Shown: piece by piece, positions 1 through 9,048 of the stretch
Layout of the letters: every line of letters begins with the position of its first letter
Position numbering within the stretch: position 1 is the first letter of the stretch
Origin: Lachnospiraceae bacterium KH1T2
GTDB taxonomy: Bacteria > Bacillota > Clostridia > Lachnospirales > Lachnospiraceae
Direction: 5' to 3'
Length of the DNA stretch: 64,000 nt
Assembly: GCA_900114405.1 (NCBI GenBank)
Contig: FOSY01000004.1
Coordinates: 124,001 to 188,000, forward strand
Translations under genes and position numbers: made by a program
Notes under the pieces: generated by a model
What the model saw: the letters and a program-made list of their open reading frames with translations, nothing else
Databases searched by the model: none
Told to the model about the DNA's origin: nothing

Positions 1-733
1 GAAGGTCATTGATTTCCTGTAAAAGATATGGGAAGCCGCTAAGCATAGTCACATTATTTCTTTTGATAAATCCGATAAGCTTCTTAATATCTGCTCTTTC
101 TTCATCCGATGGAATCGCCAAGGCCGCTCCTGATAAAAGAGTTGTAAATACCTCTTCAACAAATATATCAAAGGAACATACAGAATGCTGAAGCATTATA
201 TCGCCACAGTCCGGGTGAAACTCATTGCAAAATGCTCTCACATAATGACATACATTTGCATTCGTTACAGAAACACCCTTAGGTCTCCCTGTAGTTCCTG
301 ATGTATAAAGGATATAAGCCAAATCCCTTTCGTCATATTCAGCATCACCTACAGCTGTTTCCTCTATAGCTAATCCTTTGTCTACAATTATATTTGTTAA
401 TTTGGGAAATCTTTCTGCATACTCTCTGTTCGTGATAAGCACGCTCACCTCAGCCTCTTCCATCATGTATCTGATTCTTTCCTTTGGAAAAAATGGTTCA
501 ACAGGTATATATGCTGCCCCAGCCCGCAATGCTGCAAATATGGATGCTATCATTTCAACTGAATGATTCATCATTATACCTACCCTTTTGCATCCTTTGG
601 GAATTCTTGCAGCTATTGTATCTGCCAGTAAAAGCAGTCCCTTTCTGCTAAGATTTCTTTCATTATCAAAAACTGCTAAAGCATCTTTATTCTCATTTAC
701 CTGTGCCATGAATTTTTCAATTATTGTATTCAT
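1..733 (-). CDS. Adenylation-domain (AMP-binding) protein, N-terminal part, runs off the window
   Basis: The reading frame opens at an ATG ending at 733, six bases after an AGGAG ribosome site, and stays open to base 1, so the C-terminal part lies outside the window. The translation (about 244 residues seen) begins MNTIIEKFMAQ and contains the phosphate-binding core YTSGTTGRPKG of the ANL superfamily near residue 140. An acyl- or amino-acid-adenylating enzyme activates a carboxylate as its AMP ester. The sequence style (AGAAYIPVEPFFPKERI, HSVCSFDIFVEEV) is closest to NRPS adenylation domains or D-alanine-type ligases. Whether carrier or condensation domains follow cannot be told from here. 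The gene is separated from the island genes by about 170 non-coding bases and has its own probable promoter. Confidence 0.85.
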   Translation of the reverse strand, partial: MNTIIEKFMAQVNENKDALAVFDNERNLSRKGLLLLADTIAARIPKGCKRVGIMMNHSVEMIASIFAALRAGAAYIPVEPFFPKERIRYMMEEAEVSVLITNREYAERFPKLTNIIVDKGLAIEETAVGDAEYDERDLAYILYTSGTTGRPKGVSVTNANVCHYVRAFCNEFHPDCGDIMLQHSVCSFDIFVEEVFTTLLSGAALAIPSDEERADIKKLIGFIKRNNVTMLSGFPYLLQEINDL

Positions 734-783
734 CTATTAGTATCTCCTATATTTCACACATATCTCTTCGTTACAATGCATAT

Positions 784-811
784 GATATAGGAAATATACA
801 AAGCTGCACAA
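784..811 (-). promoter_or_regulatory. Probable promoter of the adenylation-domain gene
   Basis: On the minus strand a TTGTGC -35 (806-811) and a TATATC -10 (784-789) are separated by 16 bases. A GTATCA/TGATAC inverted repeat with a four-base loop lies just upstream near 833-848 and could be an operator. Weak consensus, so only moderately supported. Confidence 0.4.
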
Positions 812-906
812 GTACGCAGTTTTTTGAAACATAGTATCACCGATGATACTTTTGTGTGACTATGCGGTGTATCTGGCACAAATTTTTTTTACAAGCGAGT
901 CATATT

Positions 907-1212
907 TTAAATATTTGCTACTGCCTTTATCTGTGCCACCAATATTGCCTTTGCCCTATCATCTGTTATCCGCCTCAGTAAATTCTTCATTTCCATATCA
1001 AAAGCATCCTCTTCCTTCTCCTCAACCCCAAGCAGATAATTCGGTGTAATATCAAGATGCTCTGACAACTCCACAAGCACACTTTCCTTAATATCCACCT
1101 TATCATTCTCATAAGCAGAACTCGTAGATTTAGGGATGCACATAGATACCTGAACCCTGACTCCAAGTTCTCCGTTGGCAGCTCTCCTATTTAAGCTTTT
1201 CATTTCGATCAC
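907..1212 (-). pseudogene. XRE-family regulator with the recognition-helix region deleted
   Basis: The second half (IPKSTSSAYENDKVDIKE then HLDITPNYLLG) is nearly the same as the regulators at 1513-1878 and 4490-4816, and it ends with the same type of helical tail (AILVAQIKAV). Where the other two have LG.RI followed by about 20 residues of helix-turn-helix before M.IPKS, this one jumps from LGVRVQVS straight to MCIPKS, an apparent in-frame loss of about 14 residues. No good ribosome site precedes the candidate starts at 1212 or 1203. I read it as a decayed copy. It could be expressed as a DNA-binding-dead paralogue, but nothing shows that. Confidence 0.6.
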
Positions 1213-1227
1213 ATCAGTAATGATGTC

Positions 1228-1344
1228 TTATCTGTAATCTTTGATGATAGCTTTTAAGACTGCATAATTTTCATATAGAAAATCGAATCTCTGCTCCACA
1301 TCACTGTCTAAATATTCGTCAATGCTAATTGCCTCAGATTCCAT
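1228..1344 (-). CDS. 38-residue acidic hypothetical protein
   Basis: A strong ribosome site (GGAGG, 5 bases before the ATG ending at 1344) opens a 38-codon frame, MESEAISIDEYLDSDVEQ followed by a helical RFDFLYENYAVLKAII segment, ending in TAA at 1228-1230. It lies 15 bases upstream of the decayed XRE gene in the same direction. I do not recognise it. The good ribosome site and acidic helical composition argue for a real small gene, perhaps a relic leader cistron of the regulator unit. Confidence 0.5.
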   Translation of the reverse strand: MESEAISIDEYLDSDVEQRFDFLYENYAVLKAIIKDYR

Positions 1345-1465
1345 GTGTACCTCCTATAGAATTTCTGAAGCATAACCGGTTAGCTTCTTGTATCTCGTTG
1401 ACAAGACTTATTATAGGTTGTCATGCTTTATTATTCGTTTGCCAAAGCTTGTACTTATAGAGAGA

Positions 1466-1494
1466 AAAGTACAATGACGTTGTACTTTTGAGAC
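1466..1494. promoter_or_regulatory. Perfect 10-bp inverted repeat, candidate operator
   Basis: The arms AAAAGTACAA and TTGTACTTTT are separated by five bases. The repeat sits between the small gene at 1228-1344 and the XRE gene at 1513-1878, about 130 bases upstream of the small gene. It is symmetrical like an XRE-type operator. No T-run follows it on the minus strand, so it is less likely a terminator. Confidence 0.4.
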
Positions 1495-1512
1495 AAAAAA
1501 GACGATATATTT

Positions 1513-1878
1513 TTATCCATGTAGTCGTCTTCTTTCTTCGGTATCTTCTAATTTATTTGTGATAGTTTTTATCTGAACAATCAGAATTTCTTGCACTTTT
1601 TCGTCTTTGATAGATTGCAGTAGCTCAAGTGCCTCATTGACGAAACTATTATTCGATGTCTCATAACCGAGCAGATAATTTGGTGTAGTTTCTAAATGCC
1701 TAGAAAGCTCAGTTATAACGCTTCCTTTTATATCCACTTTGTTATTTTCATAAGCCGATATTGTAGATTTTGGAATATACATTTTGTCTGCCAGTTCTTG
1801 TTGAGTTAATCGCTTCCGTTTTCGCTGCTTGTATATTCTTTCACCTATTTTTTCTGTAGTTCCCCCACTTTCTTCCAA
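1513..1878 (-). CDS. XRE-family transcriptional regulator
   Basis: This is a DNA-binding repressor-type protein of 121 residues. The N-terminal helix-turn-helix reads IGERIYKQRKRKRLTQQELA then KMYIPKSTISAYENNKVDI, followed by the linker TPNYLLGY and a helical tail (IKDEKVQEILIVQIKTI) shared with the other XRE proteins of this island. The start is taken as a TTG at 1876-1878 because a GGGGAG site lies about nine bases upstream; no in-frame ATG precedes the helix-turn-helix. It follows the terminator of the GTPase operon in the same direction. Its likely targets are nearby operator repeats, which is inference. Confidence 0.8.
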   Translation of the reverse strand: MEESGGTTEKIGERIYKQRKRKRLTQQELADKMYIPKSTISAYENNKVDIKGSVITELSRHLETTPNYLLGYETSNNSFVNEALELLQSIKDEKVQEILIVQIKTITNKLEDTEERRRLHG

Positions 1879-1905
1879 GCCACAACTCTCCCCTTTACAA
1901 ACAAA

Positions 1906-1943
1906 AAGTGCAGAGAAACAACATAAGTTATCTCTCTACACTT
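1906..1943 (-). terminator. Terminator of the GTPase operon
   Basis: On the minus strand AAGTGTAGAGA pairs with TCTCTGCACTT across a loop of about 16 bases and is followed by TTTG. It lies 30 bases past the stop of the 62-residue gene. Confidence 0.65.
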
Positions 1944-1972
1944 AGGTAGCTATACTCCAGTTCGCAGTAGTG

Positions 1973-2161
1973 TTATTTTCTTAATTTCTTAAGATGACTG
2001 TCAATGCATACCGCATACTTCCGCTTTTCCTTACGAGTTTGCTCCACATCGACAAGATAAATACGTCCATCCGTCCTGAGCTCCAGATCACATATCCTGG
2101 TCTTCTCAGCATCTTCACTTCTGATTATTTCTCTTCGTAACACTTCATCCTCAATTACCAT
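1973..2161 (-). CDS. 62-residue basic protein coupled to the GTPase gene
   Basis: Its start codon overlaps the end of the upstream GTPase gene by 7 bases, the arrangement of translationally coupled partners. The protein (MVIEDEVLRREIIRSEDAEK..., ending HLKKLRK) is charged and has no signal peptide or membrane segment. A central RTDGRIYLVDVEQTRKE stretch suggests a small beta-sheet fold. I recognise no family. The coupling and the terminator right after it make it the second and last cistron of the GTPase operon, so a role as its partner or regulator is the natural guess. Confidence 0.7.
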   Translation of the reverse strand: MVIEDEVLRREIIRSEDAEKTRICDLELRTDGRIYLVDVEQTRKEKRKYAVCIDSHLKKLRK

Positions 2162-4368
2162 TCCTTTACCCCTTCAAGCCTTGAGCCATTTTCTTCAATC
2201 CCCCGTCTTACTATGCCTATTACATTTTGAATGTACTGCCGCTGGTACTCATTCATGTCATATGAATAATCACCTATTTCCGGGGCTGAGTATTCAAAGA
2301 TTTCTTTAATTTTAATTGACCTATCATACGAAGAATATCTTCCTCTATAATCGTAAGCATCCTGCCACCTTTTTAACTGCTGACTGTCTTGCCACATTGT
2401 ATTTTTGATAAAGTCTGCTAACTCTGTGTTTATCTTCAGCTTTATATTATTAATCAGTTCTTTCTTAACCTCTTCTGTTGTAACATTTGGTTCCACATTT
2501 AAAGGTCTGTTCAAAAAAACATTTAATTCAGATCTAATTTGATCACTAAGATCTGCCAATGGCATCAGTTCATAATTGTAATGATCCATCCCAAAATAGC
2601 CCAATCTTCTAGTCAGAGCCTTAATTCTTGACCAAAACTCAGTTTTGCTTGTCTTTACAGGAAGTCCAATCTTCTCTAACCAATTATCACGGTACTTGGC
2701 AATTGCATTCTTTATGTGGTTGTATAATGTTACCTCATCATAATGCAGTACAACATCTTCAACCGACAGGTTAGTTTCAAAAATTTCATATACTCTTTTG
2801 AGCATCCTGTTTAAATTATTATTAGTCAACTTACTCATTTCTTTTTTTTCATCAAGATCAGAGAAGAAGAAGCAATTTTCCAACATGGATGCTATCTCAT
2901 TTTTACCTACTTTATCCGTATTACTATTTTTCATGTCACGCAAAAAAGTTTCAAGTGCTATTCTTACATGATTTTTCTTATCAGCAATACTTACTAAATT
3001 ATCACCATTCATCAGGTCAACATGCGTAAATGCAATTAATACTTTTTGAGCTAACCCCATTTCCACAAATGTTTTCAGTGCCATTTTTGTATTTTCCATT
3101 ACCGGCTGCAATGCATTATCAACAGCTATTATTGCATCTGACATTGCTAATCTATTAACCATATCCGTCGGCATAGATGTCAAAGTCGTCTTATGCCCTA
3201 ATCCCTCGCCATCATATATTACAAGGTTATCTCTAGGCTCTATCCCTTCCGACTTGAAGTTGCCCTTTATTCTGACTGAATCAACAATAGGTGTCAGCAA
3301 TCCTCCCCAATAAGTTTTGGAATTGCTAGTAAACATCTTGATTTTCTTTAAGAAATCCGTCTTACTATCAGACTTAAAATACCATGCATTTATCCATGCA
3401 CCCTGCTGGTTAAGCTTTTTTCCTCCCTGCAAAAGTTGAAAACGATTCCTTATTTCATCAACAATATCTCTTCTTAGAGCCAATACAGAATCATCTTCTT
3501 CAAAGTTGAACTCGTCAACAGTTATATCAACGTCATTTTCTTTATAACTTTTCACAAGTTCTATTATCCTATCCACAAATCCAGAAACACATGCTTTAAG
3601 TCCTTCCAAATCCTGTTCATATTCGTATGACGCTTCTTCTTTCTCTATATCTTCATCGTCTTCATCTTCATCTATTTCCTTTTGCTGTAATAATGATGAA
3701 TCACCCAGGATATATGCAAGTCTTAAAACAAGATCCTTATGTGTAAGAAGCTTTTCTTCTATTCGGTCTCTTTCAGATTCCGGATCACTAACCTCGTATC
3801 CATACAGTAATGCCTCTTCTATGCATTCCTGCACATACATTTCAACAATATGTCTGGACATGAAGGTAATTACTGCTTCATATTCCCCACTCGATGAAGT
3901 TATTATCTCCATATTACAAGTAGTAGTCCGTCCAGATGCTGCTGATGGAAATCTTTCTTTTTTAGTACCTAACAGTGTTCTTAGTATTGATGTTTTTCCA
4001 GCACCACTCGGCCCGATTAGTGATAAATATTCTCCACCTTGCTGCTTAGATGGCAATGGAATCACATCCAGGTATTTACCTTTATCTTCAATTTTGGTTT
4101 CCATAGCATCGTAAAACGCATCAACAATTACACTTTCAAATTGAGCATACGCCTCTTCTTTTTTTGAATAATCCCACCATCTTTCATCATCAACCAGCTC
4201 CTGAAGCTGTTTCACAAGATAAGTTGCTCTTTCTGGATCTGTTGTTCCTAATCCACGATGAATCTTCAAACCATACTTACCATCCCTATCCTTTACAACA
4301 GGATGCCTATAATTGATTGTGTATCCGCTCTTACCTTTTGGTGGCACTGATGTTATCTTTACAGCCAT
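2155..4368 (-). CDS. Large P-loop GTPase with integrase-arm-like N-terminus (unfamiliar family)
   Basis: Start: the ATG at 4366-4368, seven bases after AGGAGG; the GTG two codons earlier is too close to that site. Counting residues from that GTG, 1-65 (ITSVPPKGKSGYTINYRHP, then GLKIHRGLGTTDPERA) resemble the N-terminal arm domain of tyrosine recombinases. G1 is GPSGAGKTS (121-129), a possible G2 is GRTTTC (148-153), G3 is YDGEGLG (387-393), G4 is THVD (450-453) and a possible G5 is FFFSDL (502-507). About 260 residues, including an acidic run near 235-255, separate G1 from G3, far more than in a minimal G domain. The C-terminal 230 residues look helical and charged, with no membrane segment. 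The protein therefore probably binds and hydrolyses GTP; its substrate is unknown. It is transcribed from a promoter bracketed by operator repeats and is coupled to a 62-residue protein. A defence or stress role is inferred only from the neighbours (XRE regulators, AbiE). Confidence 0.8.
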   Translation of the reverse strand: MAVKITSVPPKGKSGYTINYRHPVVKDRDGKYGLKIHRGLGTTDPERATYLVKQLQELVDDERWWDYSKKEEAYAQFESVIVDAFYDAMETKIEDKGKYLDVIPLPSKQQGGEYLSLIGPSGAGKTSILRTLLGTKKERFPSAASGRTTTCNMEIITSSSGEYEAVITFMSRHIVEMYVQECIEEALLYGYEVSDPESERDRIEEKLLTHKDLVLRLAYILGDSSLLQQKEIDEDEDDEDIEKEEASYEYEQDLEGLKACVSGFVDRIIELVKSYKENDVDITVDEFNFEEDDSVLALRRDIVDEIRNRFQLLQGGKKLNQQGAWINAWYFKSDSKTDFLKKIKMFTSNSKTYWGGLLTPIVDSVRIKGNFKSEGIEPRDNLVIYDGEGLGHKTTLTSMPTDMVNRLAMSDAIIAVDNALQPVMENTKMALKTFVEMGLAQKVLIAFTHVDLMNGDNLVSIADKKNHVRIALETFLRDMKNSNTDKVGKNEIASMLENCFFFSDLDEKKEMSKLTNNNLNRMLKRVYEIFETNLSVEDVVLHYDEVTLYNHIKNAIAKYRDNWLEKIGLPVKTSKTEFWSRIKALTRRLGYFGMDHYNYELMPLADLSDQIRSELNVFLNRPLNVEPNVTTEEVKKELINNIKLKINTELADFIKNTMWQDSQQLKRWQDAYDYRGRYSSYDRSIKIKEIFEYSAPEIGDYSYDMNEYQRQYIQNVIGIVRRGIEENGSRLEGVKEW

Positions 4369-4380
4369 TTTCACTCCTCC

Positions 4381-4475
4381 TTGTTGTTCCAGAGTTGTTC
4401 CAAATTTCTCTTATATTATTTATAATCTATTCTCGTTATTCTGTCAAGCCTTTTGGAACACTTTTGGAACAACTT
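4381..4475 (-). promoter_or_regulatory. Promoter of the GTPase operon bracketed by inverted operator repeats
   Basis: On the minus strand a consensus TTGACA is followed after 17 bases by TATAAA. Upstream of the -35 lie GTTGTTCCAAAA and GTGTTCCAAAA in direct repeat. Downstream of the -10, running up to the ribosome site, lie TTTGGAACAAC and TCTGGAACAAC, the same half-site inverted. A dimeric or tetrameric repressor binding all four would shut the promoter. The XRE gene ending at 4490 is the nearest candidate. Confidence 0.7.
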
Positions 4476-4489
4476 ATTTTTTTGAAGCA

Positions 4490-4816
4490 TTACACATCTA
4501 TAAGTGCTCTAATCTGTGTCAAAAGAACCTCCTGTATCTTCTTATCTTTAATCTGCGACAGTATTATTTCTGCTTCAGTAACAAAATCATTTTTGCTATT
4601 TTCACATCCAAGCAAATAATTCGGCGTAGTATCAAGATGCTCTGCCAATTCCACAAGCACGCTCCCCTTTATATCCACCTTGTCATTCTCATATGCAGAT
4701 ACCGTTGACTTCGGAATGTGCATCACTTCTGCAAGTTCCTCCTGGGTATAACCTTTTCTGATCCTTACTGCTTTGATTCTCTGTCCCAGTGTTTCTTCAT
4801 TGATTATGTTCTTCAT
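4490..4816 (-). CDS. XRE-family transcriptional regulator upstream of the GTPase operon
   Basis: This 108-residue protein has a complete helix-turn-helix (LGQRIKAVRIRKGYTQEEL then VMHIPKSTVSAYENDKVDI), the linker TPNYLLGC and a helical tail QEVLLTQIRALI. The ATG at 4814-4816 follows GAGGGAGAAG. It lies 121 bases upstream of the GTPase start in the same direction, with the operator-bracketed promoter in between, so it is the best candidate repressor of that operon. It is very close in sequence to the XRE genes at 1513 and 907, so recent duplication is likely. Confidence 0.85.
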   Translation of the reverse strand: MKNIINEETLGQRIKAVRIRKGYTQEELAEVMHIPKSTVSAYENDKVDIKGSVLVELAEHLDTTPNYLLGCENSKNDFVTEAEIILSQIKDKKIQEVLLTQIRALIDV

Positions 4817-4999: not shown

Positions 5000-5800
5000 C
5001 TAAATACTTTTTAGAAAATCCACATCTTCTTTTAGCACCGTATCTGTCGACACTCCAAGCCAATTTTTACCAGACTTTTCAAGATCACTTATATATTTCT
5101 TATTAGCAAATACTCGCTCAACCCTCTTTACCACTTCATCCATCGAGGTGACATTTCGCAGAGTATTATCGGCGAAAATGTATTTTTCAATACATCCCCT
5201 AAGTTTATCAACATCAACCTCTTCCTTCAGATAATAAATATCAAACACATCTTTATATCTTGTAGAACGGCTTCCGAATCTTACAAGTGATTTCAATTTC
5301 TCAGTAATCATCTGATGTCTGGAATTAATCAAAAGGCTGACTGCATCATCCTGAAAGCCTACATCAAAAGCATATTCTTCCTGTTCAAGGGTAAGATCAG
5401 CATGAACACCTATATCCATCTTAAGGGAAAGCATTGTTCCTTCTGTATCTTCAACGGTTAGTGTAATCCTTTTCCCCTTGTAGTCCTGATGATTAAGCTC
5501 TGTGATGTTGCCTGCAATACCAATCTTTAAGCCATCAAGACAGTTCAGCTTTCCTATAAATCTTTTAATAGAATCATCCGAAATTGAATATCTTATAAAA
5601 TCAAGGTCAAGATCCTGCGTAGCACGTCTGGCATTCTTAGAAATACTGCGCATTACAACACCGCCCTTAATCGTGGCATTTCTCCCCATTCCACTCTCTG
5701 CAATTGCTTTAAGCACTATATCCTGGCATAGCTTAGCTTCAGCATTTGCTTCACTATACCCTTCACCTTTAATCTTTTCTACTTCATCATGTAAATTCAT
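5000..5800 (-). CDS. abiEii: AbiEii-type nucleotidyltransferase toxin
   Basis: This 266-residue protein belongs to the nucleotidyl transferase AbiEii/AbiGii toxin family. Visible features are the GG...R motif region IKGGVVMRSISKN, the RATQDLDLDF metal-binding aspartates near residue 65 and the C-terminal RYKDVFDIYYL typical of the family. Known relatives transfer nucleotides to RNA and stop growth, giving abortive-infection immunity as part of a type IV toxin-antitoxin system. It starts five bases after the stop of the antitoxin gene, with AGGAGG inside the upstream cistron. All key residues seem present, so it may be active. Confidence 0.85.
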   Translation of the reverse strand: MNLHDEVEKIKGEGYSEANAEAKLCQDIVLKAIAESGMGRNATIKGGVVMRSISKNARRATQDLDLDFIRYSISDDSIKRFIGKLNCLDGLKIGIAGNITELNHQDYKGKRITLTVEDTEGTMLSLKMDIGVHADLTLEQEEYAFDVGFQDDAVSLLINSRHQMITEKLKSLVRFGSRSTRYKDVFDIYYLKEEVDVDKLRGCIEKYIFADNTLRNVTSMDEVVKRVERVFANKKYISDLEKSGKNWLGVSTDTVLKEDVDFLKSI

Positions 5801-5805
5801 TTATA

Positions 5806-6348
5806 TCAAAGAACCTCCATCTGTATCTGATTCATAATAATTTCGCCTTTATGGAACATGTAGGCATAATCTTCTACAAGACCAAAATCCATTTCTTCGG
5901 TGATACGTCGATAATTTTGAATGATTTCTTTATAATAGTCAAAAGGTATTTTGGACCTAAATCTCATCAATTCTACCAGCATGCGTTCCCTATTATATAT
6001 CCTGATGGATATATTATTGTATTGCATCTCTTCAATGCCAGCCTCAAAAAATTCATCTTTTAAAAAAGATTGTTTTACGCGACTATCTTTAATCCGACTA
6101 TCTTCCCTCTTTGTAGCAAGATGAAAATAATCGGGAATGACATCTGTAAGAGAGTGATAATAATATGCACTCTTATCAGTAAATACAGTTTTAGGATATT
6201 TACTCATTATTACTTCAATATCTGATATATTGCGTCTAGTAGAATATATTCCCTTTTCTTTCATGAAGATATTTCCACTAAGGATCTCTTTTTTGAGTCT
6301 ATAGTCGCTTCCATATTTATCTATACATTCATTATATGTAAGAAGCAT
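5806..6348 (-). CDS. abiEi: AbiEi-type antitoxin and autorepressor
   Basis: This 180-residue protein sits immediately upstream of the AbiEii toxin gene. It has the usual AbiEi pattern: a short N-terminal DNA-binding part (YRLKKEILSGNIFMKEKGIYS), a central YPKTVFTDKSAYYYHSL segment and a helical C-terminus. The ATG at 6346-6348 has AGGAGG six bases ahead. Known relatives repress their own operon by binding inverted repeats and neutralise the toxin without forming a stable complex. The operator repeats upstream (6363-6491) fit this exactly. Confidence 0.85.
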   Translation of the reverse strand: MLLTYNECIDKYGSDYRLKKEILSGNIFMKEKGIYSTRRNISDIEVIMSKYPKTVFTDKSAYYYHSLTDVIPDYFHLATKREDSRIKDSRVKQSFLKDEFFEAGIEEMQYNNISIRIYNRERMLVELMRFRSKIPFDYYKEIIQNYRRITEEMDFGLVEDYAYMFHKGEIIMNQIQMEVL

Positions 6349-6504: not shown

Positions 6505-6741
6505 TTAAAATTCAGCTAAAACTCTTAGCTGCGCCAAGGCCACCTGTTGCATCTGGGAATCCTTAATCCGTGAATACACCTCAATCACATCTTCATATCC
6601 AAACGCTTTATACAACTCTCTCGACTCTACAAACGCTGGTGCTAAAACACCTCTAAGAATCCAGTCTGTTGTCACATTAAACCTATTGGAATACTCCAGT
6701 AGTGCATAAGCTTTTACAATAATTCTTAACTTCCTAAGAAA
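6505..6741 (-). pseudogene. C-terminal remnant of an XRE-type regulator
   Basis: A frame without any start codon reads VKAYALLEYSNRFNVTTDWI..., then YSRIKDSQMQQVALAQLRVL and stops at 6505-6507. This matches the end of an XRE protein: the last helix-turn-helix helices, the linker, and the same kind of QIKDxxxQ helical tail as the other regulators here. The helix-turn-helix itself is gone. It directly follows, in the same frame, the stop of the next gene upstream. Confidence 0.6.
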
Positions 6742-7098
6742 TTAACACTCGTCGCCTAAAAAATCTTCGTCATCCTCGTCCCATTCATCATAATCCGGAT
6801 ACTGTTCTAACACACCGACAGATTTAATCAACTCTGGTGCCGATTTGCTAAGTTCATCCTCAACTTTTTGTACATGTATGGTGAACATCCAGCCATCACC
6901 ATAATCATAATGTAATGAAAAATTCTGGCCTTTAACAAGTCCTATCCTATCTATAGCTATATCAGTTGATGGAGCATCATCTTCTGGATCATACTGATAA
7001 CTATCTTCACTATACATTCTGTTATCCATGCAGAATTCATAGAGATGTTCATGTATAAAGTCAAAAGATACTATAATAAACTCACATAATCTATCCAA
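6742..7098 (-). pseudogene. PRiA4b ORF-3-like protein, apparently truncated at its N-terminus
   Basis: The 118 residues show the family pattern: SFDFIHEHLYEFCMDN, then FSLHYDYGDGWMFTIHV, then a C-terminal DYDEWDEDDEDFLGD. Intact relatives (plasmid pRiA4b ORF-3 family) start with another 40 or so residues. Here the only possible start is a TTG at 7096-7098, while homology-like sequence (KISGKETLDRL) continues a few codons further upstream before running into a terminator hairpin at 7126-7150. The N-terminus therefore seems to have been cut off by a rearrangement. Function of the family is unknown. Confidence 0.55.
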
Positions 7099-7164: not shown

Positions 7165-9048
7165 TTATTCAGTTCTTATCTTTACTTTTTTTCCTGAGAA
7201 TGCTATCCCAAATTTAATGATATCCGCTACACCCTCCTCACGCATTTCTGTGTCATACCCTTTTTTATTGATCTGATCAAGAGCTTCTGCAGATAAGGCA
7301 TCCAGTTCCTCATCGTTCAGATCTTTATCCCATTTTAATTCCATGATCATTCCCGGATATTTATTTTCCCTGGGGAACAGGCTGATATCATATCGTCCGT
7401 CGCCGGACTCTCTGTTTGACCTGATCTGATACTGATTATCCATCAAAGCAATAAGCCCAAGAACCAGCCCATGATAAAACCCTTCTGCTCCGGCATCATA
7501 GAAGCTGATACTCTTCTTTAAGTATTCTCCTATTCCGTCCTGCAGTTTCTTTGTATCTTGTGAAAAAAGACTCTCAGCGATCTTATTGGCTGTAGTTCTT
7601 CCCATTGCACCGATCTGCATCAGATGCGATAGGATCTCACTCTTATATACTGCCGCTATCTCACGGTTCGGTATCGAAACCTCGCAGAGCCACGCTCCAT
7701 CACCTTGCAATTCTTTCTTCGGAGTTTTCAGATATCCGGCCACCAGAAGCAAACTGTAGATATTTGCAGGATCTTCCGCAAGTGATCTGTACACCACGTT
7801 CTGATCGATCCTCGCAATGACACGATCTCCTTGAAGAAGAGAATACAGTTTCTCAGTGATATCATCCGTTGCTGTCTTCAGTACATCTTCCAGTACCTTG
7901 TTTTTTCCGGTGTTCACCCAGTATGCCTGCGGCAAGCATCCTCTTGACAAGTAATTGATCACTGACCACGGGTTATAAATTTCCTTGTTCCCGAAGAAAT
8001 ATCCATCATACCAGCTCCGAAGTTCCTTCTCCTTGTCGGATGCTCCGTAATAAGCAAGCATTTCACCCACTTCGGATTCAGTGAAGCCAAAGAAACCATC
8101 GTACTCCTCGTCCATCACTGAATTAACAGTAAGATTATTTAAACCGCTGAAAATGCTCTCCTGCGCTATCCGAAGTATTCCAGTCAGGAATCCATATGAC
8201 AGGTTGCTGTTATCCTTGAACGCCCCGGAAAAAAAGTTCCTCATGAATCCGATGATCTCATCATAGAACTCCTTCGAATACCCTTCCTGGATCGGAGTAT
8301 CGTACTCATCAATGATGATGATCGGAGCTTTTTTGTAATGAGCTGCAAGCATTTTGGAAAGCTTTTGAAGAGAAGCCGAAAGCTCTACTTCATTCGCCTG
8401 TCCGTTTAATACTTTCTCAAAATAGTCTTTCTCATACTTTTCGAGTTTATCACTGTTTTGTAGTTCAGAATGTCTTCCGAATTCTTCCTGTAGCAACCCG
8501 GAGATCTTTGCAAAGGTTGCTTCCCAGGAATCATATTTTACATCTTTAAATGTCAGAAATATCACAGGATACTTCCCCTGATGCTTTCTGTATTCATCCC
8601 CGCACTTCCAGATTGCTTTGTCCGTAAAATACCTGCTTGTATCTTCATCGGATATTTCAAAGAAAACCCGAAGCATATCCATATTCAGGGTCTTTCCGAA
8701 ACGTCTTGGTCTTGTAAATAATGAGACAAAAGCTTTACGATCAAGAAACTCTTTGATCAGAAGAGTTTTGTCCACATAATAGTATTCTGACTGTGTACGG
8801 ATATAATCCGATATTCCTACCGGAAGTGGTCTTTTTTTATTCTCTACTCCCGACTTGATATATCGTCCTGTAACGATACGCTTATCAGCCGGACGCTTTG
8901 CATCATCCGGTATCTGCCATCTCTTACCTACCTTAACAGCTCCGGGAATCATACCTTCCTTGCAGAATTCCGTTACTCTACGCTCCGATATTCCCCATAC
9001 CACAGCCATTTGCTTGCAGGATTTCATATGGACATACCCCCTTTTCAT
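7165..9048 (-). CDS. AAA-ATPase-like / PD-(D/E)XK nuclease-like protein with N-terminal helix-turn-helix
   Basis: This 627-residue protein has three parts. Residues 1-55 form a MerR/excisionase-like helix-turn-helix (VVWGISERRVTEFCKEGMIP then VKVGKRWQIP). From about residue 75 comes the AAA-ATPase-like domain found in many gut and rumen bacteria: LPVGISDYIR, YVDKTLLIKEFL, TRPRRFGKTLNMDML as nucleotide-binding loop, and IIIIDEYDTPIQ as Walker B. The C-terminal part has a PD-(D/E)XK core, GDGRYDISL followed by MIMELKW. Role unknown; family members are often scattered in multiple copies and suspected to act on DNA. Two starts are possible, 9048 (AGGAGATGATAG ahead) and 9027 (AGGGGGT ahead). Confidence 0.85.
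   Translation of the reverse strand: MKRGYVHMKSCKQMAVVWGISERRVTEFCKEGMIPGAVKVGKRWQIPDDAKRPADKRIVTGRYIKSGVENKKRPLPVGISDYIRTQSEYYYVDKTLLIKEFLDRKAFVSLFTRPRRFGKTLNMDMLRVFFEISDEDTSRYFTDKAIWKCGDEYRKHQGKYPVIFLTFKDVKYDSWEATFAKISGLLQEEFGRHSELQNSDKLEKYEKDYFEKVLNGQANEVELSASLQKLSKMLAAHYKKAPIIIIDEYDTPIQEGYSKEFYDEIIGFMRNFFSGAFKDNSNLSYGFLTGILRIAQESIFSGLNNLTVNSVMDEEYDGFFGFTESEVGEMLAYYGASDKEKELRSWYDGYFFGNKEIYNPWSVINYLSRGCLPQAYWVNTGKNKVLEDVLKTATDDITEKLYSLLQGDRVIARIDQNVVYRSLAEDPANIYSLLLVAGYLKTPKKELQGDGAWLCEVSIPNREIAAVYKSEILSHLMQIGAMGRTTANKIAESLFSQDTKKLQDGIGEYLKKSISFYDAGAEGFYHGLVLGLIALMDNQYQIRSNRESGDGRYDISLFPRENKYPGMIMELKWDKDLNDEELDALSAEALDQINKKGYDTEMREEGVADIIKFGIAFSGKKVKIRTE

Follow-up and report, generated by a model that had tools for sequence, protein, structure and literature searches.

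A predicted dynamin-like GTPase with an integrase-arm-like N-terminus and a conserved promoter array: a candidate mobile defence gene in Lachnospiraceae bacterium KH1T2

The 64,000-nucleotide stretch of the Lachnospiraceae bacterium KH1T2 genome analysed here (assembly GCA_900114405.1, contig FOSY01000004.1, positions 124,001 to 188,000; hereafter the window, numbered from its first letter) carries on its minus strand the gene for a large GTPase (2155..4368), which by prediction combines a dynamin-like G domain with an N-terminal DNA-binding-like domain and whose promoter is embedded in a conserved array of short repeats. We propose that this single gene may constitute a self-contained phage-defence module that moves horizontally, and give an even chance to this complete chain, in which a mobile dynamin regulates its own expression and acts against phages. 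The gene is intact and encodes, from the ATG at 4368, the 737 residues given in a preliminary description of the region; a GTG two codons upstream would extend it to 2155-4374 and 739 residues. The range singled out in that description, 1973-4816, also takes in an XRE gene (4490-4816) and the promoter array (4383-4473), the latter absent from the description.

The GTPase motifs are readily located on the minus strand, with G1 (the P-loop) at residues 119-126 (3991..4014; GPSGAGKTS starts at residue 119), G3 (DGEG) at residues 386-389 (3202..3213; DGEGLG starts at residue 386) and G4 (THVD), placed by motif and alignments, at residues 448-451 (3016..3027). The distance of about 260 residues between G1 and G3 is accounted for by a helical insert that separates switch I from G3 and is about 175 residues long (residues about 172-347; 3328..3855). 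The insert, assigned from predicted secondary structure, includes an acidic linker whose acidic run begins at residue 231. These motifs, their spacing and the acidic run had all been noted beforehand and agree with the residue positions; the motifs are unlikely to be chance occurrences because they are conserved across relatives, G119, G122, G124, K125, T148, T149, D386 and G389 being invariant in both of our alignments. The family has the G1 signature (GxxxxGK[ST]), switch-I threonine and G3 signature (DxxG) of the dynamin superfamily, but not its G4 signature, [TN]KxD, in place of which THxD is found in 12 of the 13 rows of alignment A2 and in all eight of the second alignment, L035 having TKMD. 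We read THxD as a conservative departure and say that the protein would fold and work like dynamins, without calling it a member.

Searches of Pfam, PADLOC, PHROGs, NCBIfam and PDB sequences returned P-loop-level matches alone and no curated family, so that identities as an ABC, RsgA or AAA protein were dropped. The PADLOC 2023 library held no convincing model (P-loop-level mad3, mad8 and AriA at most), and Pfam gave, over the 13 members of A2, the same generic classes together with Dynamin_N in seven (E up to 1, best 0.00082). The earlier statement that no named defence system is known with this set of features therefore stands for the curated libraries, among whose families there was no strong full-length match to a characterised one; its designation as an unfamiliar GTPase can be kept at that level and narrowed at the level of predicted fold. 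An AlphaFold2 model built from A2 (mean pLDDT 75.9, pTM 0.56) retrieved with Foldseek 20 rows at E ≤0.001, comprising SynDLP, the bacterial dynamin pair, mitofusins, BDLP, IniA and OPA1. Alignment with VIA-align gave Z 17.7 for mitofusin 5gnt (root-mean-square deviation, rmsd, 3.5 over 232 aligned residues), Z 17.0 for 5owv_B of the bacterial dynamin pair (rmsd 3.9, 257 aligned) and Z 16.2 for SynDLP 9em9_A (rmsd 4.8, 326 aligned over residues 109-729), a modest margin over generic GTPases such as EngB and Era (about Z 14) and EF-Tu (15). With a C-terminal helical region that appears stalk-like by fold comparison (residues 545-725 of the predicted model; 2194..2736, minus), the protein very probably consists of a dynamin-like G domain followed by a helical bundle.

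Ahead of the G domain lies the N-terminal domain (residues 1-100; 4069..4368, minus), predicted to fold as β-β-β-α followed by helices, an arrangement also obtained when it was modelled alone (pLDDT 81.6). It is present in the window, in the relatives from genomes G090 and G860, in the proteobacterial plasmid members and in the aligned viral-contig members, and is missing from four Rhodococcus proteins, in which the P-loop begins at residue 31 or 44. When viral contigs were scanned with this domain, 15 loci were found, every one on a contig carrying the GTPase. Matches to Pfam DUF6538 were obtained for five of ten N-domains scanned, the window's own not among them, with a best score of 16.0 bits against a curated cut-off of 27 bits; hhalign aligned the N-domain with DUF6538 N-termini at P 1.4e-4 and a probability of 52.7, and two of ten integrase sequences outscored all 300 shuffles in comparison with it. 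Four of the six DUF6538 proteins scanned also have a Phage_integrase or integrase SAM-like domain, and the remaining two look recombinase-like by eye. Enolase-superfamily rows retrieved for the N-domain (Z ≤6) were set aside as a common arrangement. Taken together, the sequence comparisons are suggestive, not proof, of an integrase-arm-like DNA-binding domain. The resemblance to the arm of tyrosine recombinases proposed in the preliminary description is supported at this level, and it is now accompanied by a matching DNA-site signature.

That DNA-site signature is the promoter array. In its general layout, two GTTGTTCC copies 10-11 bp apart are followed, after a gap of 1-10 nt, by a -35 element (TTGAC); a pair of inverted GGAACAAC copies, starting 21-46 nt past that element, stands directly ahead of the start codon. 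In the window, on the minus strand, the putative operator comprises upstream copies GTTGTTCC (4466..4473) and AGTGTTCC (4455..4462, imperfect with two mismatches) and downstream copies of GGAACAAC at 4394..4401 and 4383..4390, starting 33 and 22 nt before the ATG; between them lie a predicted -35 box TTGACA (4442..4447) and, 17 nt from it, a predicted -10 box TATAAA (4419..4424). The -10 box was read by eye and is not listed by our consensus promoter scan, which demands a final T and whose 23 promoter-like sites, against 19.9 expected, carry no weight.

Under a fixed rule of at most two mismatches per site, chosen after the data had been seen, the full array is found in 18 of the 20 members with the N-domain and in none of 10,000 dinucleotide shuffles, and 33 of 26,630 sliding windows over 12 fetched sequences match it, all at six GTPase promoters. 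None of the four Rhodococcus members lacking the N-domain has it; these were counted apart, and a fifth Rhodococcus plasmid (H8, at the record start) lies outside the set. Also outside the count of 20 are L040 and L051, whose upstream region is the same as in L039 and L041, L044, which is like L043, and L049, which is partial. At one mismatch, at least three sites are retained in 16 of 21 listed members, a list that includes two without the domain and takes L022, from Azospirillum, at its own GTPase start. For the main count L022 was scored at its operon promoter, a choice likewise made after the data were seen, as no promoter stands directly before its GTPase: the array lies ahead of a small DUF4258 gene, the first of a presumed two-gene operon with the GTPase, a position that would be expected of an operon operator. 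At this locus (L022, 9641-12307) the DUF4258 gene represents a different small partner, on the upstream side of the GTPase and under the same putative operator.

Within the window there is a single exact match to the array pattern, and the whole genome (3.87 Mb) has one exact tandem, at the GTPase promoter. Across 295 genomes of the same order the tandem was found at five places in four genomes, compared with 22 places in eight genomes for a reversed-pattern control; since it is rarer than the control, the half-array by itself is not specific. The other three tandem-bearing genomes (L121-L123) showed no GTPase relative by eye, and the occurrence in L122 looks like a coding repeat. The neighbouring XRE regulator was considered as the binder and is unlikely to be so, as the array persists in L041 and L050, two loci in which the GTPase had no visible XRE neighbour; counter to this, an XRE gene stands 0.6 kb upstream in L021 and the next gene in L035 has an HTH_26 match. 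Because nearly all copies with the N-domain carry matching repeats around their promoter, we consider it quite probable that the GTPase regulates its own expression through the array.

Related arrays also occur without the GTPase. The exact pattern was found in 46 stretches of viral contigs, 15 of them with the GTPase; among the remaining 31, 10 show a match to a tyrosine integrase no more than 63 bp from the array (L066, L087, L090, L057, L071, L074, L080, L092, L052 and L068; two or three lineages by eye). The integrase of L090 carries Arm-DNA-bind_3. As integrases with arm domains have this repeat unit nearby, we read GTTGTTCC as an arm-type site, and the arrays beside these integrases are probably the arm-type sites of att regions. 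A further 21 of the 46 stretches adjoin neither a GTPase nor an integrase found by our five integrase queries, and some of them are simple or coding repeats. Repeats of the GGAACAAC type were also seen upstream of small phage genes in L069, L078, L083, L086 and L059, whose products we take, by eye, to be VRR-NUC-like. A precedent for arm-site control is provided by the KplE1 prophage, whose intS gene is reported to be negatively autoregulated from a promoter that overlaps attL; the study draws attention to sites close to the -35 and -10 boxes (PMC2951348).

Relatives of the GTPase, at about 28-36% identity, are found in two further genomes of the phylum to which the window belongs, in prophages, and on plasmids of Proteobacteria. 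While 17 of 145 related genomes gave a match, only two beyond the window's own exceed short P-loop-region matches; the relative in G090 aligns at 36% over residues 11-732, and that in G126 is partial and has a stop. At E 1e-6, 392 genomes of the order yielded four matches (the window's own, G090, G126 and one at P-loop level), and at E 1e-10, 398 genomes of the phylum yielded two (the window's own and G860); a search of the order to which G863 belongs (246 genomes) gave none but had no positive control and carries no weight. Among plasmids, 11 of 72,556 records match, all below 60% identity, with hosts in Caballeronia, Agrobacterium, Rhizobium (two), Bradyrhizobium, Azospirillum and Rhodococcus (five). 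None of 50,697 phage records matches, and the 2.9 million contigs of IMG/VR yielded at least 17 GTPase loci, complete scans with other patterns returning the same 17 contigs. Scanning chromosomal contigs with a P-loop pattern, in which named chromosomal hosts are under-sampled, gave eight loci among the matches listed, one of them, L027, a useful distant relative: a 975-codon open frame in Aureivirga (161-3088; 26% over residues 117-683) that is possibly a sister family. The family appears rare and patchy in these searches, as would be expected of mobile cargo.

Of 14 loci lying outside phage late operons, 8 have a gene of defence type no more than about 10 kb away, in several cases adjacent, a count taken over hand-picked neighbours and without a background rate at random loci. 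The neighbours include AbiE in the window, a CBASS cyclase and phospholipase in L019, BREX with AbiE in L023 (from annotation), type I restriction in L024 and L035, Pbe with PDC-S11 and PDC-M26A in L099 and Abi_2 in L120; that of L119 is an N6-methylase, by itself no proof of restriction. Three further loci are weak cases, with a DpdB-like gene (L020), a ZorD/DpdE-like helicase (L022) and a PLD domain (L038). The earlier view of the GTPase as a candidate defence gene is supported to the extent that it stands next to such genes at many loci. In viral contigs L041, L043 and L050 the gene is opposed to tail or head genes, in L037 it adjoins a head gene, and in L045 an integrase lies downstream of it. 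Lysogenic cargo genes typically stand opposed to phage late genes, and the placement suggests that the GTPase is a prophage moron. From its neighbourhoods and this cargo position, we consider a role of the locus in defence rather likely.

A mechanism that would unite these observations starts from a fusion protein, in which residues 1-100 would form an integrase-arm-like DNA-binding domain and residues about 107-730 a dynamin-like GTPase. In the uninfected cell the N-domain would bind the tandem GTTGTTCC sites on both flanks of its own sigma-70 promoter and repress it, probably cooperatively or by looping. Upon infection the protein would leave the DNA, through GTP-dependent assembly on a membrane or by titration, and the freed protein would act through its G domain and helical stalk at membranes, as membrane dynamins do; productive lysis would be delayed or blocked and the promoter derepressed. 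A bacterial dynamin, DynA, is reported to delay phage lysis (PMC8844932).

A number of observations weigh against this interpretation. On the side of DNA binding, every DUF6538 score of the N-domains is under the Pfam cut-off, the hhalign probability is just above one half, and the N-domain alone found no credible fold match with Foldseek (best E 0.7, none of the listed matches being an arm domain). On the side of autoregulation, L025 has the N-domain yet no array and L099 the upstream triple only, and the 18 array-bearing members are related, not independent, representing roughly ten lineages by eye. In KplE1, moreover, none of the single arm-site mutations is reported to have relieved repression, and a clean test of the arm site over the -10 box was not possible (PMC2951348). 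The mostly THxD form of G4, rather than TKxD, speaks against a canonical dynamin. Defence is weakened by the uncalibrated neighbourhood count and by loci with no defence gene, namely L048 among the three neighbours scanned and L021 as judged by annotation only, L025 being outside the scan.

The same evidence may be read differently. Were the protein a membrane-maintenance or plasmid/prophage housekeeping dynamin, its proximity to defence genes would come from shared mobile islands, which fits its patchy occurrence as cargo on plasmids and prophages as well as the lack of defence neighbours in L021, as judged by annotation, and among the three neighbours scanned in L048; given the defence-type genes at 8 of 14 loci, even without a background rate, and the opposed orientation to late genes that we associate with lysogenic cargo, we hold this to be unlikely. 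Less probable still is a role in anti-integration or mobile-element control, in which the arm-like domain would bind integrase arm-type sites, the GTPase would block or remodel competing intasomes and the promoter sites would serve merely as feedback. It would explain why the same kind of array lies close to tyrosine integrases in viral contigs lacking the family, and it suits a gene carried on prophages, plasmids and an element with serine recombinases; however, these ten integrases amount to few lineages, the single one scanned (L090) has an arm of a different subfamily, and across the window and 23 loci, 24 family sequences in all, the five integrase queries match only L045, about 3 kb from its array.

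A third alternative concerns the open reading frame (ORF) downstream of the GTPase, which encodes 62 residues (1973..2161, minus) and had been described as a translationally coupled partner. The ORF exists, shares 7 bp with the end of the GTPase gene and is followed by a terminator-like hairpin of 17 pairs (1906..1943, minus; two such sites in 5.1 kb against 1.5 expected by shuffling), features that would suit a two-gene toxin-antitoxin-like unit of the 737- and 62-residue proteins. Against this, a search of 145 related genomes found no credible relative for the small protein, only two genomes matching, its own included and the second at E 0.0046 across a stop, and the genes downstream of the GTPase differ among annotated relatives. 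We have accordingly rejected it as a core partner and consider such a unit highly improbable: what is not conserved is the pair, the GTPase itself recurring in other genomes.

Within the window the GTPase is flanked by two XRE genes with HTH_3 matches (1513-1878 and 4490-4816) and followed on the other side of the second by an AbiE pair (5000-5800 and 5806-6348; PADLOC AbiEii, E 3e-129, and AbiEi, E 6.5e-87), so that the XRE and AbiE neighbours reported earlier are confirmed; among relatives the XRE gene is not a constant neighbour. A 116-nt repeat occurs at 1028-1143, 1667-1782 and 4608-4723, inside three XRE-like genes flanking the GTPase, with copies 72-83% identical to the first, and the GTPase cassette may have been inserted between duplicated XRE regulators. 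Another XRE-tail-like ORF was seen by eye at 6505-6675. Further along the minus strand are encoded a plasmid pRiA4b ORF-3-like protein (6742-7098; PF07929) and a 627-residue AAA-ATPase_like and PDDEXK_9 protein (7165-9048) with a sub-threshold HTH_17 match at its front.

A more far-reaching version of the proposal, which we put forward tentatively and think doubtful as it stands, is that the family represents a new class of DNA-anchored immune dynamin, in which an integrase arm and its cognate arm-site array have been fused to a dynamin GTPase. On its own promoter the protein would be both GTP-sensitive repressor and sensor, and infection, or an incoming element with the same arm sites, would release it to the membrane. 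A single DNA-anchored polypeptide would then be sensor, transcription switch and effector. If the main proposal is right, one immune protein would combine transcription and GTP switching with the remodelling of membranes, and an integrase arm with its DNA site would have been put to new use as a regulatory module. Dynamin relatives such as Mx and GBP are antiviral in animals, and a few are antiphage in bacteria. We know of no dynamin relative with a sequence-specific DNA-binding domain and an operator conserved across distant hosts, and our literature searches, whose scope was open papers rather than subscription papers, preprints and supplements, returned no paper recognised as describing this family.

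Among known systems, the GTPase resembles BDLP, the bacterial dynamin pair 5owv/5oxf, SynDLP, DynA and the mitofusins in its predicted G-domain fold and following helices, and differs from bacterial dynamins and mitofusins by its N-terminal DNA-binding-like domain, the helical insert before G3, the mostly THxD G4 and its own putative operator array, sequence identity being 11-18% in the listed structural alignments. With LeoA (PDB 4aur, Z 14.4) it shares a predicted dynamin-superfamily fold in a bacterial setting; Eleos-type dynamins, grouped here with LeoA, gave no match of that name in the PADLOC search of the window, the library not having been checked for an Eleos model, and to our knowledge neither LeoA nor Eleos-type dynamins have an arm domain or operator array. 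AbiE is a neighbour both in the window and, within BREX, on a Rhodococcus opacus plasmid, but its proteins are unrelated to the GTPase and form a type IV toxin-antitoxin of their own. With the DUF6538 and Arm-DNA-bind_3 arms the N-domain shares an R-x-P ... LGT-x-D ... A pattern. As in tyrosine recombinases with such arms, tandem repeats lie beside the gene, and autoregulation is probable, as reported for KplE1 intS (PMC2951348); unlike them, the GTPase has no recombinase catalytic domain, and its arm-like N-terminus, below the Pfam cut-off and without a fold match, is joined instead to a predicted dynamin-like G domain.

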